From an uncultured Chlorobiaceae bacterium (lineage in GTDB: Bacteria > Bacteroidota > Chlorobiia > Chlorobiales > Chlorobiaceae), in NCBI GenBank assembly GCA_903871235.1, contig CAIQGA010000050.1:1-42407 (forward strand): DNA of 42,407 bases. The letters run 5' to 3'. The notes under the pieces are model-generated. The model did not search any database, had not been told where the DNA came from, and saw nothing but the letters and a program-made list of their open reading frames with translations. The position numbers and the translations under genes were made by a program. Shown in pieces: positions 35,820 to 42,407 of this stretch (the first letter of the stretch is position 1; each line of letters opens with the position of its first letter).

Positions 35820-37466
35820 ATGTATATCGACACCAGCAAGACCACCATCAACGGAAAAACCTACCAGCGACATCTTTTTCGCGAATCCTATCGTGAAGAT
35901 GGCAAGGTGAAGAATCGCACTCTGGGCAAAATCTCAAAATGTTCAGAAGGTGAAATTGCTGCCATTAAACTTGCTCTGAAGTACAAAGACAACCTGGCGG
36001 CCCTGTTGCATATCGAAGATGTTGAACTTCATGAAGGTCTTCGGGTTGGCGTGGTGTTTGCGCTCAAAATGCTTGCCGAAAGGCTCGGTATCAGTAAGGC
36101 GCTGGGCAGTACCCGCCAGGGAATGCTTGCCTTGTGGCAGATCATGGCTCGACTGATCGGGCAAGGTTCACGCTTGGGTGCGGTCAGGATGGCTGCAAGC
36201 TATGGCGCCTGTGATGTGCTTGAATTAGAAAGTTTTACGGAGGATGACCTGTACGCCAACCTGGCATGGTTGATGGAGAATCAGGAGCGCATTGAGAAGC
36301 AGTTATTCAAGCATAATTCAGCGAATGCTGGACCGGAATTACTGCTCTATGATGTTACATCATCATATCTTGAAGGGATGGAGAATGTACTTGCTGCTTT
36401 TGGTTACAACCGGGATGGCAAAAAGGGGAAGAAACAGATTGTCATTGGCTTGTTGTGTACCGCAGATGGTGATCCGGTTGCCGTTCGGGTTTTTGCAGGC
36501 AATACCGGTGACAAGTCAACCGTTGCAGAGAAGATTCGCACCATTGCCAACACCTTTGGAATTGAAGAGATAACGATGGTTGGCGATAAGGGCATGATCA
36601 AAACGCCGCAAGCCAAAGAGTTGACCGAGGCTGGATTTCATTACATCACCTCACTTTCGAAACCGGAAATCAGAACCCTGCTGAAAGCAGAGGTACTGCA
36701 AATGGATTTTTTTGATAACGATCTGTATGAGGTTGAAAATAAAACCGATGGCGTTCGATATGTGCTGAGAAGGAATCCTGTTCGAGAGGCAGAGATGGCA
36801 AAGAATCGTCAAGAACGGGTCAAAAAAATCCATCGTTTTGTTGAGGAGAAAAACAGCTACCTCGCCGGTTCCCTCAAGCGTAGCAAGGATGTTGCACAAC
36901 GCTCTCTTCAGAAAAAGATCAACCAGTACAAGTTGACCGATGTGCTGGAACTGACCAATGAAGAGAGGGTGTTCAAAGTGACGGTTAATGAAGAGATATT
37001 GAAAGGAGCCGCTCTGCTGGACGGCTGTTATGTGATCAAAACTGATGTGAAGAAAGAGCTTCTTTCGACCAAAGAAGTTCATGATCGGTACAAAGATCTG
37101 GCAAAAGTGGAGCATGCTTTCCGGACATTCAAACAAAGTCATCTGGAAATCAGGCCGGTTCATGTACGAACCGAAGCCAGTACCCGTGGTCATGTTTTTG
37201 CGGTCATGCTTGCCTATAAAATCGAGAGGTTGCTATCAGAACTCTGGAAAAACTGTGAATGCACCGTGCCGGAGGGAATTGATGAACTTGGGGCAATACG
37301 CAGCACAATCGTCACCCTCAAAGAGTCAAGCTGTCAGAAAATTCTTCAGTCGAAAGGACTTGCCGGGGAGTTGCTGGCCGCTGCCGGAATTACGCTTCCA
37401 GCGATTATTGATGCCAAAAATGTCGATGTAGTCACAAGAAAAAAACTGGCGCCAAAGCGTAAATAA
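35820..37466 (+). mobile_element. IS1634-family DDE transposase (IS4 superfamily)
   Basis: This intact 548-residue transposase has the DDE triad likely at Asp178 (LLYDVTSSYLEG), Asp256 (MVGDKGMIKTP) and Glu431 (KVEHAFRTFKQSHLEIRPV). The last motif, with Y/H..R..K spacing, and the N-terminal RTLGKISKCSEGE segment point to IS1634. Length is normal and the frame is unbroken, so it may still be active. The ATG has no good ribosome site. Element ends are not established; possible terminal inverted repeats begin near 35702 (CCTTATAA) and end near 37489 (TTATAGG), with no convincing target duplication. It separates the outer-membrane gene from the restriction region. Confidence 0.8.
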
Positions 37467-37769
37467 AATTGGAATAATGTGTTATAGGGATTTCTCGTTC
37501 TTTTTCTTCTGGAACTTCCGTTCTATACTGTAATAGTGATTGATTGTTGCAATAATATGTATATGCTGTTACTACAGTAAGATTTGTAATTAAAATTTAT
37601 TGTAAGAAAGATTTCTGCAAGGGGAGTTGCGTAGTTCAGGCGAATCCCTTCAATCCATTCTATTTCAATGCTGATTGTGTCTCATTTTTACGAACGCGGT
37701 GAAGAGAAGAGGAGCTTCGTCGGCAGGGTACACTTGATTTCTGAAAAAAATGAGCAACATCACTTCCTG
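37467..37769. other. Gap between transposase and HTH regulator
   Basis: This region has no gene. It includes the probable right end of the insertion sequence, near 37489, followed by AT-rich DNA leading to the operator-like palindrome at 37770. Confidence 0.5.
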
Positions 37770-37828
37770 AAAGCCATAATATTGGCCTTATTAATGTGAT
37801 CATGACTTAAAGACAATATTATGGCTTT
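37770..37828 (+). promoter_or_regulatory. Perfect 15-bp inverted repeat covering the regulator start codon
   Basis: AAAGCCATAATATTG (37770-37784) and CAATATTATGGCTTT (37814-37828) are exact complements across 29 bases. The start codon at 37821 lies within the right arm. This is the expected layout for an autoregulatory operator, and the hairpin could also hide the start codon. Confidence 0.7.
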
Positions 37829-38171
37829 TAAAGGATATGATTTTTCATCAGATGAATGGGAGCTTGTCATTGGCGATCAGTTCCGTGCCCTGCGTATCCG
37901 GGCTAATCTGGAGCAGACCGAACTTGCGGCTCTGGCGTCCATCAGTGTTGGTGCACTGAAAAATCTTGAAGGGGGCAAGGGTTCATCGCTCAAAACAATT
38001 GTCAAGGTCTCGAGAGTTCTTGGTCGGACTGACTGGTTGAATGCCTTGGCACCCAAGGTTTCGGTCAGCCCCATGCAATTGCTGAAAGGGCAACGTAAAG
38101 ACGTTGTTCGACAAAAGGTATCTCGCCCACGAAAAACAAGAACAGAGCAAGAGCACCTGCACCTCCGTTAA
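37821..38171 (+). CDS. HipB-like XRE-family transcriptional regulator
   Basis: This 116-residue protein has an XRE helix-turn-helix (LRIRANLEQTELAALASISV, then GALKNLEGGKGSSLKTIVKV) and a basic tail (KGQRKDVVRQKVSRPRKTRT). The layout DEWELVIGDQFRALRIRANL and the segment SVSPMQLLKGQ are typical of HipB-like antitoxins encoded just ahead of hipA. No hipA follows; a type I restriction gene begins 81 bases later. It may control that gene or may be the survivor of a toxin-antitoxin pair. The ribosome site is poor. Confidence 0.82.
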   Translation: MAFKGYDFSSDEWELVIGDQFRALRIRANLEQTELAALASISVGALKNLEGGKGSSLKTIVKVSRVLGRTDWLNALAPKVSVSPMQLLKGQRKDVVRQKVSRPRKTRTEQEHLHLR

Positions 38172-38195
38172 TCGGTACTGTGTACTTCCGGAAAC

Positions 38196-38254
38196 ATGGT
38201 GTATATTGAACGTCTGCGTATCGTTACGATCAAAGCAACACGCCTATACACCAT
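38196..38254 (+). promoter_or_regulatory. Perfect 10-bp inverted repeat over the two possible hsdR start codons
   Basis: ATGGTGTATA (38196-38205) pairs with TATACACCAT (38245-38254). The first arm includes an in-frame ATG at 38196, and the second arm ends in the ATG at 38253, used here as start. A regulator could bind it, or the hairpin could limit translation. Confidence 0.55.
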
Positions 38255-41051
38255 GAAAAACGAGCAGCAAACCCGCGTCGAATTGATTGACAAGCTGTTG
38301 CTGCAGGCAGGCTGGAATGTGAACGATCCGGCCCAGGTTGTGGAGGAGTTCGATATTCTTGTCGGCTTGCCCGAAGGCGTGCAGGAGCCCCGAACCCCTT
38401 ACGAAGGCCATCAGTTCAGCGACTATGTGCTGCTTGGAAGGGATGGCAGGCCAATTGCCGTGGTTGAGGCAAAAAAAACAAGTCGGGATGCGGCCATTGG
38501 TCGTGAACAGGCCAAGCAGTATTGCGGCAATATCCAAAAACAGTTGGGCATCGAGCCTCCATTCTGCTTCTATACCAACGGTCTTGAAACCTTTTTCTGG
38601 GATATTGGCAACTACCCTCCACGCAAGGTTCTCGGCTTTCCCACCCGTGACGACCTTGAGCGCTTCCTCTACATCCGCCGGAACCGCAAGCCTCTCACCG
38701 GGGAGCTGATCAACACCGCCATTGCCGGACGCGACTATCAGCTTCGCGCCATTCGCTCTGTCCTCGAAGCCATCGAGCAGAAAAAGCGGGAGTTTCTGCT
38801 CGTTATGGCCACCGGTACCGGCAAAACCCGCACCGCCATTGCCCTCGTCGATGCCCTCATGCGTGGCGGACATGCCGAAAAAGTGCTCTTTCTGGTTGAC
38901 CGCATTGCCTTGCGGGAGCAGGCACTTTCAGCCTTCAAGGAGCATCTGCCCCACGAACCCCGCTGGCCCAACAGTGGCGAAAAGCTCTTTGCAAAAGATC
39001 GCCGCATCTACATTGCCACCTGTCCCGCGATGCTCAATCTCATCAGGGATGAATCGCACTCCATTTCGCCCTCGTTCTTCGACTTCATTGTCGTAGACGA
39101 GAGCCATCGCTCCATCTACAACACCTGGGGCGAAATTCTCGAATACTTCAAAACCATTACCCTTGGGTTGACGGCCACCCCTACCGATATTCTTGACCAC
39201 AACACCTTCAATCTCTTTCACTGCGAGGATGGTCTGCCCACCTTTGCCTACACCTACGAAGAGGCGGTGAACAACACTCCGCCCTTTCTGAGCAGTTTTC
39301 AGGTGATGAAGATCCAGACGAAATTTCAGATGGAGGGGATCAGCAAGCGAACCATCTCCCTTGAAGATCAAAAAAAGCTTATTCTTGAAGGCAAGGATAT
39401 CGAAGAGATCAACTTCGAAGGCACGCAACTCGAAAAGCAGGTGATCAATCGGGGGACGAACAGTCTCATTGTCAAGGAGTTCATGGAAGAGTGCATCAAA
39501 GACCAGAACGGCGTTCTTCCCGGAAAAACCATCTTCTTCTGCGCCACCATAGCCCACGCCCGCAGAATTGAGGAGATCTTTGACCGCCTCTACCCAGAGT
39601 ACAAAGGCGAACTGGCCAAGGTTCTGGTCTCCGACGACCCCCGCGTCTACGGAAAGGGAGGCTTGCTCGATCAGTTCAAGAACAGCGATATGCCCCGCAT
39701 TGCCCTCAGTGTTGACATGCTCGACACCGGCATTGACATCCGCGAACTGGTCAATCTCGTCTTCGCCAAGCCAGTCTACTCCTACACAAAATTCTGGCAG
39801 ATGATTGGTCGGGGCACCCGGCTCCTTGAACTCCTTAAAATCAAGCCCTGGTGCACCCAAAAAGAGCTTTTCCTGATTTTGGACTGCTGGGACAACTTCG
39901 AATACTTCAAGCTTCAGCCCAAGGGCAAAGAGCTGAAGGTGCAACTTCCTCTTCCCGTGAAACTCTTCGGGCTGCGGCTTGATAAAATTGAGTCTGCCCT
40001 CTCAATTGGCAACACCGCCATAGCGGAGCGGGAGAGTGTAAAACTCCGCAAGCAGATTGCCGCGCTTCCCGGCAGCTCCGTGGTGATCAAAGAGGCTGCA
40101 TCCCTTCTTCATCCTCTTGAAGAGGAGAACTTCTGGGTTACGCTCTCCCCGCAAAAGCTCGACTATCTGCGTAACCAGGTTAAACCACTCTTCAGAACCG
40201 TCTCCGACGCCGACTTTAAGGCGATGCGTTTTGAGCGCGACATCCTTGAAAGCTCACTGGCACAACTGCGCAACCAAAAAGAGAGGTACGACACCCTCAA
40301 CGACGCTCTTATCGAGCAGATCAGCCAGCTCCCGCTGAGCATCGGCTTTGTGCAACAGCAGGAGCTTTTGATCAGGGAGGCTCAAACCAGCCACTTCTGG
40401 AACCAGGCCACCGAAGAGAGCTTCGACGAGTTGATTGAAAAGCTCTCACCACTGATGAAATTTCGCGAGCCTGAGCGCGGCGCTATCGGTCAAGTGCATC
40501 TGAACTTGCAGGATCTGCTCCACCACAAAGAGATGGTGGAATTCGGCCCCCAAAATGAGGCCGTCAGCATTGCTCGCTACCGCGAAATGGTTGAATCGCT
40601 CATTACCGAACTGACAAAACAGAACCCGATTCTCAGCAAAATCAAGGAGGGCAAAGCAATTTCGCCCGAAGAGGCCACTGAGCTTGCCGAGCTGCTCAAC
40701 GAAGAGCACCCGCACATTACCGAGGCTCTCTTGCGTGCCGTCTATCAAAACCGCAAGGCCCACTTCATCCAGTTTATCCGCCATATTCTCGGCCTCGAAC
40801 TCCTCAAAAGTTTTCCCGAAACGGTTGCCGAGGCTTTCGACCACTTTCTCAAAGAGCACACAACCTTTTCCAGTCGCCAACTCGACTTTTTAAACCTCCT
40901 CAAAAACGTTATTGTAGAGCGTGAAAAAGTAGAAAAGAGAGACCTCATCAACGCCCCCTTTACGGTCATCCACCCAAAAGGCATTCGCGGGGTCTTTTCC
41001 CCGGCTGAAATCAATGAAATTTTGGCACTGGCCAAAAAACTGGCAGCATAA
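38253..41051 (+). CDS. hsdR: Type I restriction enzyme R subunit (HsdR)
   Basis: This 932-residue motor and nuclease subunit has an N-terminal PD-(D/E)xK nuclease (Asp57 in FSDYVLLG, Glu72 and Lys74 in VVEAKK), a superfamily 2 helicase with Walker A MATGTGKT (186-192), DESH at 282-285, GLTATPT, the second RecA lobe (ALSVDMLDTGIDIRE, QMIGRGTRL) and a long C-terminal helical region for complex assembly. ATG 38253 gives the usual N-terminus MKNEQQTRVELIDKL; ATG 38196 is possible. The hsdM and hsdS genes are not visible. The downstream gene begins one base after this stop, so the two are translationally coupled. Confidence 0.9.
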   Translation: MKNEQQTRVELIDKLLLQAGWNVNDPAQVVEEFDILVGLPEGVQEPRTPYEGHQFSDYVLLGRDGRPIAVVEAKKTSRDAAIGREQAKQYCGNIQKQLGIEPPFCFYTNGLETFFWDIGNYPPRKVLGFPTRDDLERFLYIRRNRKPLTGELINTAIAGRDYQLRAIRSVLEAIEQKKREFLLVMATGTGKTRTAIALVDALMRGGHAEKVLFLVDRIALREQALSAFKEHLPHEPRWPNSGEKLFAKDRRIYIATCPAMLNLIRDESHSISPSFFDFIVVDESHRSIYNTWGEILEYFKTITLGLTATPTDILDHNTFNLFHCEDGLPTFAYTYEEAVNNTPPFLSSFQVMKIQTKFQMEGISKRTISLEDQKKLILEGKDIEEINFEGTQLEKQVINRGTNSLIVKEFMEECIKDQNGVLPGKTIFFCATIAHARRIEEIFDRLYPEYKGELAKVLVSDDPRVYGKGGLLDQFKNSDMPRIALSVDMLDTGIDIRELVNLVFAKPVYSYTKFWQMIGRGTRLLELLKIKPWCTQKELFLILDCWDNFEYFKLQPKGKELKVQLPLPVKLFGLRLDKIESALSIGNTAIAERESVKLRKQIAALPGSSVVIKEAASLLHPLEEENFWVTLSPQKLDYLRNQVKPLFRTVSDADFKAMRFERDILESSLAQLRNQKERYDTLNDALIEQISQLPLSIGFVQQQELLIREAQTSHFWNQATEESFDELIEKLSPLMKFREPERGAIGQVHLNLQDLLHHKEMVEFGPQNEAVSIARYREMVESLITELTKQNPILSKIKEGKAISPEEATELAELLNEEHPHITEALLRAVYQNRKAHFIQFIRHILGLELLKSFPETVAEAFDHFLKEHTTFSSRQLDFLNLLKNVIVEREKVEKRDLINAPFTVIHPKGIRGVFSPAEINEILALAKKLAA

Positions 41052-41052
41052 C

Positions 41053-42407
41053 ATGACAGAAAATAACCGCATCGAATACAAGCGCGAGCTGACCGACGGA
41101 CTTGAGAAAGAGGTCGTCGCATTTTTGAACTATCATGACGGCGGCATTATCTGGATTGGTATTGACAAGCATGGAGCTGTCTATGGCGTTTCGGAGTGCG
41201 ACGCTCTGCAGCTTGCCATCAAGGATCGCCTCAAAAATAATATTCAGCCCTCATGCCTTGGCTTGTTCGATGTCATTCATGAAACCCGTGATGGCAAAGA
41301 TGTTATTAAACTCATCGTTGCAAGTGGCTCCGAAAAGCCCTACTACCTGCGCAGGTTCGGTATGTCGGACAAAGGGTGTTTCATTCGTATCGGCAGCGCC
41401 AGTGAACCCATGTCGCTGCGTATGATTGAAGAGCTCTTTGCCCGACGTACGCGTAATTCAATCGCCCGTATCCGTTCTCTGCGGCAGGATCTCACCTTTG
41501 AGCAGCTTAAAATCTACTATCAGGAGGCTGGTCTCACGCTTGGTGATAAATTCGCTGCGAATCTTGAACTGCTCACCGAGGATGGTGTTTACAATTATGC
41601 CGCCTACCTGCTGGCAGACCAGAATGGCAATTCGGTGCAGGTAGCCAAATATGCCAGCACGGACAGGGTTGATCTGCATGAGAGCAAGGACTACGGCTTC
41701 TGTTGTCTGGTTAAAACCTGCAAGCAGATACTCGATCGTCTGGAGGGAGTCGAGAACCGTGTCATCAATAAAATAACTCCCCGTGAGCGTATCAGCCGAA
41801 GCCTTTGGAACAAGGTCGCCCTTCGTGAGGCTGTGATCAACGCCATTATTCATAACGACTACAGTACCGAACTGGTACCAAAGTTTGAAATTTTTACTGA
41901 CCGGCTTGAAATTACCTCGGCAGGTGCCGTTCACCCTGGCACTGAGCAGGATGATTTTTTTGCCGGATACTCCATGCCCCGCAACAAAACCCTGATGCGA
42001 GTTTTCAAGGATCTTGCTATGGTCGAATACCTTGGCTCCGGAATGCCCCGGATTCTCAAAGCTTATCCTCGTGAAGCCTACACCTTTTCGACACATTTCA
42101 TTCGGACGACCTTTCCTGTATCCTTGGAAGCCCTTGCGCTGGAAGAAGAGGTGCTGAAAGGTGAAGCAAAAACTTCGGGGGTAGAGTCAGTTCAGTCGGG
42201 GGCCCAGTCGGGGGCCCAGTCGGGGGCCCAGTCGGGGGCCCAGTCGGGGGCCCAGTCAAGGGCCCAGTCGGAAGCTGTTCTGATTGCATTGACCTATCTA
42301 CCCCGCTCCGCCATGGAGCTTATCGAAATACTTGGTCTTGATACCAAAACAGGGGCGTTCAAGCGAGCCATAAAGGAGTTGCTTGATCGGGAGCTTATTG
42401 CCTATAC
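41053..42407 (+). CDS. Schlafen AlbA-type ATP-binding protein, partial at right edge
   Basis: The frame from the ATG at 41053 (MTENNRIEYKRELTDGLEKE) stays open for 451 codons to the edge, so the 3' end is missing. Domains: AlbA_2/Schlafen nucleic-acid-binding domain (about 1-115; NYHDGGIIWIGIDKHG), a middle region, an ATP-binding HATPase_c_4-like domain (about 235-345; LWNKVALREAVINAIIHNDY, YLGSGMPRILKAY), a linker with QSGA repeats (381-408) and a C-terminal winged-helix region (LPRSAMELIEILGLDTKT...IKELLDRELI). Such proteins occur beside type I restriction genes and may act as regulators or defence partners. It is fused in expression to hsdR by a one-base gap. Confidence 0.85.
   Translation, partial: MTENNRIEYKRELTDGLEKEVVAFLNYHDGGIIWIGIDKHGAVYGVSECDALQLAIKDRLKNNIQPSCLGLFDVIHETRDGKDVIKLIVASGSEKPYYLRRFGMSDKGCFIRIGSASEPMSLRMIEELFARRTRNSIARIRSLRQDLTFEQLKIYYQEAGLTLGDKFAANLELLTEDGVYNYAAYLLADQNGNSVQVAKYASTDRVDLHESKDYGFCCLVKTCKQILDRLEGVENRVINKITPRERISRSLWNKVALREAVINAIIHNDYSTELVPKFEIFTDRLEITSAGAVHPGTEQDDFFAGYSMPRNKTLMRVFKDLAMVEYLGSGMPRILKAYPREAYTFSTHFIRTTFPVSLEALALEEEVLKGEAKTSGVESVQSGAQSGAQSGAQSGAQSGAQSRAQSEAVLIALTYLPRSAMELIEILGLDTKTGAFKRAIKELLDRELIAY
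42193..42276 (+). repeat. 12-bp in-frame tandem repeat (QSGA) in the Schlafen-like gene
   Basis: Five exact copies of CAGTCGGGGGCC run from 42193 to 42252, followed by CAGTCAAGGGCC and CAGTCGGAAGCT. They encode QSGA five times, then QSRA and QSEA. The unit is a multiple of three, so slippage changes linker length without a frameshift. Confidence 0.95.

Follow-up and report, generated by a model that had tools for sequence, protein, structure and literature searches.

At the end of a contig from an uncultured Chlorobiaceae bacterium, hsdR, the gene for the restriction subunit of a type I restriction-modification (R-M) system, is followed almost without interruption by a gene, here called slfn, whose product combines a Schlafen-type AlbA_2 domain with a histidine-kinase-like ATPase. 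The locus raises the question of what such a protein does in a restriction operon, namely whether it is a partner that HsdR needs, a regulator of the operon or an effector. An earlier note, made from the DNA sequence, had taken the tightness of the junction to imply that the two genes are needed together, and had proposed that the locus could be a type I system with an added regulator or effector. Here, we compare the locus with relatives of slfn (loci designated by L numbers), found via six peptide patterns taken from its protein, five from before a repeat array and one from the winged helix; the best 80 of the 203 relatives found make up the sample.

The restriction gene and its one-base junction

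The window, i.e. the whole stretch of DNA analysed, is the entire contig CAIQGA010000050.1 (G000:C50; 42407 bases) of a metagenome-assembled genome (MAG) of 3.30 Mb in 234 contigs, with a completeness of 99.95 and a contamination of 3.96. Because the window is a whole contig, slfn has lost its 3' end, and hsdM and hsdS could lie solely past the contig end. hsdR is the only coupled neighbour of slfn in the window (Table 1), the contig ending on the other side.

Table 1. Features of the hsdR-slfn locus in window coordinates.
Feature	Coordinates	Strand	Basis
Stretch GTGTACTTCC..AAACATGGTGTATATTG.. directly 5' of hsdR, common to several relatives of any winged-helix type	38180..38252	+	By eye
hsdR, type I restriction subunit, 933 aa, intact	38253..41051	+	Pfam/PADLOC/NCBIfam, motifs
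Single base separating hsdR stop from slfn start	41052..41052	+	Sequence; spacing conserved
slfn: AlbA_2, HATPase_c_4, 12-bp array and winged helix; 451 codons	41053..42405	+	Contig end removes 3' end
SLFN_AlbA_2 domain, residues 3-121, with E3, E8 and D38	41059..41415	+	Pfam, alignments, structure comparison
HATPase_c_4 match, residues 277-341	41881..42075	+	Pfam, structure comparison
12-bp tandem array, 6.6 copies, 94% matches, consensus CAGTCGGGGGCC, i.e. repeated QSGA	42193..42271	+	Tandem repeat; linker by pLDDT
Start of C-terminal winged helix, from residue 407, cut before wing	42271..42405	+	Complete relatives; winged helix-turn-helix (wHTH) profiles

HsdR has nuclease, translocase and C-terminal domains according to Pfam and PADLOC. 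Pfam matches above cut-offs comprise HSDR_N, ResIII, SWI2_SNF2, DEAD, Helicase_C and EcoEI_R_C, PADLOC assigns the protein to the type I REases (7.5e-163), and the EAK, GTGKT, DESH and GRGTRL motifs are present; the NCBIfam HsdR models also match, below their curated cut-offs. A longer in-frame start exists at 38196, while the MKxEQQTR N-terminus at 38253 is the same in relatives. Directly upstream of hsdR, the window carries an IS1634-family transposase and an Xre-type HTH gene (35820-38171); the HTH gene has HipB-like matches that stay under the curated cut-off, and no partner toxin lies between it and hsdR.

The earlier note placed the hsdR stop at 41049-41051 and the next ATG at 41053, and both coordinates are borne out by the sequence, the stop being TAA and the single base between them, 41052, a C. 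The same one-base spacing (TAACATG) is found in 11 of the 13 Chlorobiaceae loci with the pair, which argues that the junction did not arise by chance; the other two are spaced by two bases, and two further loci, from one Bacteroidales MAG and one Saprospiraceae MAG, by none.

Operon order in relatives

In L162 and L024, the order is hsdR, one base, slfn, hsdM, hsdS, a P-loop deaminase and a PD-(D/E)XK nuclease, and both hsdM and hsdS lie downstream in L021, L024, L031, L052 and L096, from which we read the window as an hsdR-slfn-hsdM-hsdS locus broken by the contig end. The same order recurs in two Bacteroidota loci (L089 and L094), whereas slfn elsewhere takes the positions M-slfn-S, S-slfn-R and slfn-M-S-R. 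Homologues of hsdR, hsdM or hsdS were found at most three ORFs away on the same strand in 43 of the 80 relatives, and in 28 of the 65 outside records titled Chlorobiaceae; the remaining 37 of the 80 have no R-M gene within that distance, contig ends cutting some of these loci. The description of the window as a type I locus with an added gene is hence upheld, and the pairing recurs in other genomes.

The deaminase and nuclease 3' of hsdS (L024 14926-17672; also L165) are a P-loop and cytidine-deaminase protein (dCMP_cyt_deam_1, AAA_18), resembling AvcD, and a PDDEXK_13 nuclease, possibly a further defence pair on the operon. A 3385-base contig of the same MAG (C118) carries another slfn copy, followed by hsdM after 3 bases. 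As a direct continuation of the window's 3' end it was ruled out, since its slfn and its tail differ, with 88.5% DNA identity to the window gene before the array and 47% after; the copy may come from a second locus, from a variant strain or from contamination.

To what extent the two genes depend on each other can be judged from the 19 loci chosen for having both hsdR and hsdM, among them L128, a plasmid from a cyanobacterium, and L176, from a genome more distant within the phylum. The space between hsdR and hsdM holds slfn alone in eight loci, slfn together with a second AlbA_2 protein in two, this second protein without slfn in two, and neither in seven. Two of these seven loci (L170 and L120) retain the first slfn codons, which a deletion joins to what is left of the array and tail; judging from these scars, slfn was once present in both and has since been lost, with hsdR and hsdM kept. 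Thus, the tight spacing is conserved, but the earlier conclusion that the two genes are needed together is not supported: slfn lies between hsdR and hsdM in only 10 of the 19 loci, seven have neither AlbA_2 gene there, and the position varies. Given that the contents of the space differ, that the gene was lost in two loci and that its placement varies, the most fitting reading of slfn is that of an accessory effector occupying a variable slot in the type I operon.

The second AlbA_2 and HATPase protein of the hsdR-hsdM slot is about 600 aa long (L025 7315-9159; also L023, L029, L160 and L165), and carries a VTGQ array and a Fic-like_C tail of its own. On the Kovacikia plasmid of L128 (7034-16263), hsdR is 75% identical and directly followed by hsdM, with no slfn between; a 'restriction system-associated AAA family ATPase' and a hypothetical gene lie further down.

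Domain architecture and candidate active site

Pfam finds SLFN_AlbA_2 (1.5e-16) and HATPase_c_4 (9.5e-14) in the slfn protein and no other domain; a complete relative (L162) has 472 aa. The AlphaFold model is confident, with a mean pLDDT of 85.5 and a pTM of 0.55. Its HATPase_c_4 match falls in an ATPase fold like that of histidine kinases (model residues about 190-363), with which it aligns at Z 7.1-7.8; values below 8 may mean a common arrangement only, though Pfam agrees with the assignment. Residues 376-397, within the array, have a pLDDT below 50, as in a linker. The C-terminus of the family gives profile matches to winged-helix regulators of the MarR/ZitR type, and the window's own cut tail has no Pfam match at 0.001.

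Structural alignment of the AlbA_2 model with chains of SLFN5/11/12/13/14 and SAMD9 gave Z values of 8.5-10.3, including 10.1 (rmsd 2.0) for model residues 1-103 on residues 203-324 of SLFN13 (5yd0) and 10.3 (rmsd 3.5) for the rSAMD9 tRNase domain 9o0d. The alignments listed span one Schlafen lobe, SLFN13 being described as pseudo-dimeric, and no Schlafen chain is among the first 50 Foldseek matches listed. A profile of 30 proteins of the family matches SLFN11 (7fex) at 1.8e-4, placing E3 and E8 on both glutamates of its ESQSIEFK motif and D38 on an aspartate of IGVDD. E3 and E8 are kept in 45 of 45 aligned proteins, that of the window included, and D38 in 35. Provided that the structural alignment starts without a gap, E3 and E8 would correspond to E205 and E210 of rat SLFN13, and D38, inferred from its spacing, to D248, the third acid, so that all three Schlafen acids have counterparts in the window. 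Passages of PMC5862951 report that the E205A and E210A variants of SLFN13 are inactive, both glutamates being needed for tRNA cleavage. Among phages, 18 records gave distant AlbA_2 or ATPase matches, none of them spanning 80% of the query.

A 12-bp array ahead of the winged helix

Each 12-bp unit of the array encodes four residues, and the array lies just ahead of the C-terminal winged helix. With periods 2 to 8 tried, the strongest C-terminal period is four residues in 64 of the 80 relatives and eight in another 8; 73 of the 80, one of them with period 5, pass the period limit of 2 in 200 shuffles. The eight proteins without period 4 or 8, several of them cut or late-starting, comprise seven that fail the shuffle limit and the one with period 5. 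A period-4 score of at least 7 is reached by 55 of 79 slfn ORFs (24 fall below), compared with 5 of 370 other ORFs of at least 300 aa in the same loci, these five being three copies of the second AlbA_2 protein, one run of X and one unrelated protein.

The unit itself differs between relatives (QSGA, SGVE, GGAI, GLVD, EKTS, VTxQ, ESRL and others), copy number varies even among near relatives, and several arrays are mosaic, that of the window passing from GVES to QSGA. Among the residues repeated at lag 4 in 62 arrays, 731 of 779 use identical codons, against 316 expected from each gene's codon use, which indicates that the copies are young at the DNA level. A clear mosaic is also seen in the tail array of L233, where about 14 units change part-way from EVTS to EVTP.

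Exchange of the array and winged helix

The motif of the array is correlated with the C-terminus once the N-terminus is taken into account (partial r 0.654, 0 of 5000 permutations; n = 53 dereplicated proteins), and not with the N-terminus given the C-terminus (partial r -0.011, 2988 of 5000). The first 12 residues after the array are excluded from this comparison, in which 68 arrays were reduced to 62 (dropping those with fewer than 45 residues after the array in a first version and 52 in the final one), and to 53 without near-duplicates; the first version of the motif/C-terminus correlation gave 0.651 (0 of 2000 permutations). Since the permutations ignore the shared ancestry of tails, the correlation is to be read as array and winged helix travelling together and not as one reading the other; it could reflect plain co-inheritance of a cassette.

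Pairwise comparisons locate the breaks. Between L023 and L031, identity is 95% in hsdR and 96% in slfn before the array, falls to 50% in the winged-helix core and returns to 88% in the wing. L049 and L052 show a similar break and are 97% identical again past the stop codon, and the slfn of L096 bears the tail usually found on the second AlbA_2 protein, its core and wing being 93% and 96% identical to those of L165. These alignments indicate that the tail cassette is exchanged among relatives, with breakpoints at the array.

The tail on other proteins

Plasmids were searched with queries restricted to the winged helix, the repeats being left out, and 27 of the 35 distinct records were examined. 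The carriers include Fic proteins, AlbA_2 proteins of other types, a DUF4062-HATPase protein and an AlbA_2 protein of a BREX locus. According to their annotation, 13 of the 27 records come from type I loci and one from a BREX locus, and in another the neighbours are DUF6079 and a DNA methyltransferase. A period-4 array precedes the winged helix in 17 of the 27 (score at least 3.5, without shuffle control), the other ten having less or none, and 15 of these 17 arrays show the motif expected from the class of tail, as judged by eye and not blind (exceptions LGEK and APVS). The BREX case (L190) is an AlbA_2/HATPase protein with an ESRL array and winged helix, located between brxC and pglX.

The tail can also stand alone. 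L181 is a free 89-residue protein made of EKTR repeats and a wHTH inside a type I operon, and L240 may be another such gene or a remnant. On a Salinivibrio plasmid (L215 1226-2668), hsdS, an annotated anticodon nuclease (Pfam AAA_13), a free winged helix and hsdR follow one another in a row; this free wHTH has no repeats, and the same place between hsdS and hsdR elsewhere holds a Fic protein with the tail.

The Pfam family PF21247 (Fic-like_C) covers the winged helix of several cassettes, namely those of the second AlbA_2 protein of L025, of L096, of the L186 Fic protein, of the L190 BREX protein and of the L191 DUF4062 protein; the free L181 protein matches other HTH families and not PF21247. 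The family is named from Fic, a name that covers neither the array nor the wider spread described here. It is present in 42 of 198 genomes of the phylum, and an array was found in 16 of the 30 loci examined, the winged helix being located with a profile made for this analysis. The 14 loci without one by the array score comprise nine frames shorter than 155 residues and five longer ones (L227, L231, L246, L247 and L253). In L246, L247, L249, L250 and L253, the PF21247 tails are preceded by longer GTKLGLSxxQV-like repeats and not by four-residue units.

Proposed working

With a probability of roughly 0.55, we consider slfn to be an accessory abortive-infection effector in a variable slot of the type I R-M operon, in which a Schlafen RNase is gated by the ATPase and carries a swappable recognition tail. 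This reading starts from the observed gene order in relatives, the spacing, the predicted folds, the conserved glutamates, the array and the cassette exchange, from which we infer RNase activity, its gating, a trigger and phage defence. The N-terminal Schlafen-type domain would act as a metal-dependent tRNA/RNA endonuclease kept in check by the histidine-kinase-like ATPase, while the C-terminal winged helix, held on the flexible 12-bp/4-residue repeat linker, would recognise DNA or another trigger arising upon phage infection or defeat of the R-M enzyme. Once released, the RNase would stop translation, backing up restriction as a second line. Recombination in the array and in the conserved wing would swap the winged-helix core, and slippage would alter the length of the linker.

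The retention of E3 and E8, the match to the Schlafen fold, the published BREX-linked architecture discussed below and the anticodon nuclease in the L215 slot all speak for an effector. On the other side, D38 differs in 10 of the 45 aligned proteins and, as no R-M gene was found close by in 37 of the 80 relatives, a link of its role to R-M may not hold throughout the family.

Alternative explanations

The slfn protein could instead be a transcriptional regulator of the hsd operon, whose winged helix, perhaps with AlbA_2, would occupy the hsdR promoter and so control restriction, e.g. during establishment in a new host. The MarR/ZitR-type profile matches of the winged helix and the tight operon coupling of hsdR and slfn would fit such a role, which the region upstream of hsdR, obtained for 11 of the 16 loci tried, nevertheless makes unlikely. 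By eye, a stretch similar to window 38180..38252 is seen in L023, L024, L031, L096, L170 and L160, more weakly in L025, and not in L022, L165 or L050; it thus accompanies three cassette types as well as two loci without an intact slfn. The 200 bases before hsdR are 91% identical between L023 and L031, whose cores are only 50% alike, yet 51% alike between L022 and the loci L023 and L024, with which it shares the tail type. The tail is therefore unlikely to be a cassette-specific repressor of hsdR, and a cassette-specific autorepressor at this promoter was rejected, the upstream region being unchanged with the cassette in the cleanest pair, L023/L031.

A second alternative, quite improbable in our assessment, is a gene-within-gene toxin-antitoxin arrangement like that of Rpn, in which the tail would also be made alone from an internal start and hold the full-length enzyme inactive, the number of repeats setting the specificity. 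Passages of PMC10327210 describe in Rpn a variable C-terminal domain, four-residue (dodecamer) repeats that vary between strains, an intragenic antitoxin and separate small-gene copies, and the free-standing repeat and wHTH gene of L181 and the free wHTH beside the anticodon nuclease of L215 recall the latter. Furthermore, a Shine-Dalgarno (SD)-like site of -4 kcal or better precedes 26.5% of in-frame starts around the array, against 12.1% in the control. However, this excess falls mainly in or after the array, where it is confounded by repeat composition; in the 25 codons before the array, strong SD-like sites (-5 kcal or better) precede 8 of 103 starts, against 8.5% in the control. From 45 codons before to 25 after the array, start codons coincide at any one position in at most 9 of 68 arrays, so that the scan revealed no conserved internal start near the array, and we keep this arrangement as a rival.

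Least probable is that slfn is a passenger, i.e. a mobile and promiscuous defence gene that merely came to occupy the slot and is functionally unrelated to HsdR: the varying contents of the slot, the internal deletions that removed slfn in two loci while sparing hsdR and hsdM, and the 37 of 80 relatives with no R-M gene found close by would all suit it, but the junction is identical in 11 of 13 Chlorobiaceae loci, the R-slfn-M-S order is repeated in the Bacteroidota loci L089 and L094, and the location inside type I operons recurs in other orders and phyla.

Relation to known systems

Three of the elements are already known separately, namely type I R-M systems, Schlafen-HK-wHTH (HK, histidine kinase) proteins encoded in defence operons, and defence proteins with four-residue repeats. 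The closest architecture is that of the proteins described in passages of PMC12839542, in which a Schlafen RNase is combined with a minimal histidine kinase and a wHTH; they occur in at least 1017 taxa, encoded beside BREX core genes, and are called backup effectors. slfn shares this three-part architecture, its wHTH being incomplete in the window, as well as the setting in a defence operon, the host locus being type I R-M instead of BREX. Passages of that paper on the wHTH, repeat, linker and Fic mention neither a 12-bp array nor an exchange of tails.

Two systems come closest to the array. As far as passages of PMC10327210 describe them, Rpn proteins have a variable HTH-like C-terminal domain and in-frame dodecamer repeats of varying number, as in slfn, with a tail that also exists as a separate gene, as here, and an anti-phage role. 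Rpn is, however, a PD-(D/E)XK DNase, while slfn is an AlbA_2/HATPase protein in which Pfam finds no PD-(D/E)XK domain; Rpn repeats are predicted to lengthen a helix, whereas the slfn array is predicted to be disordered; the internal start is proven in Rpn, whereas the slfn family has no conserved one; and entire winged-helix cores are exchanged in slfn, unlike in Rpn. In the HsdS subunits of EcoR124I and EcoR124II, passages of PMC3874165 describe an in-frame 12-bp TAEL repeat whose copy number sets the domain spacing and hence the recognition. There, the repeat is a helical spacer between two target-recognition domains of the specificity subunit, whereas in slfn it is a linker before one winged helix.

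A functional precedent is the PrrC/EcoprrI anticodon nuclease, in passages of PMC12707154 a tRNase guard in a type I operon that is triggered by the inhibition of restriction; PrrC and slfn belong to different protein families, and the trigger is established for PrrC. In the open-licence PMC literature, we did not find in print a 12-bp array at which a winged-helix tail common to several effector families is joined and exchanged. The repeat strings matched no paper there and, as judged from titles and abstracts, the Rpn paper alone was relevant to four-residue repeats with Schlafen, Fic or HATPase.

Beyond slfn itself, we tentatively suggest, as a possibility held with less than even confidence, that the mobile array and winged-helix cassette serves Schlafen, Fic and other translation-targeting accessory effectors of type I R-M and BREX operons as a general sensor tail, the 12-bp array being the joint at which sensors are swapped and their reach tuned, much as HsdS changes its target. 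What began as an 'ATP-binding protein' annotation beside hsdR thereby becomes a testable claim, that of one exchangeable tail with a 12-bp recombination joint common to unrelated effectors. If true, HsdS and Rpn would be joined by a third instance of a defence protein tuned by dodecamer repeats. Such effectors may guard restriction systems and, if so, the target of the tail would reveal what the guards sense.
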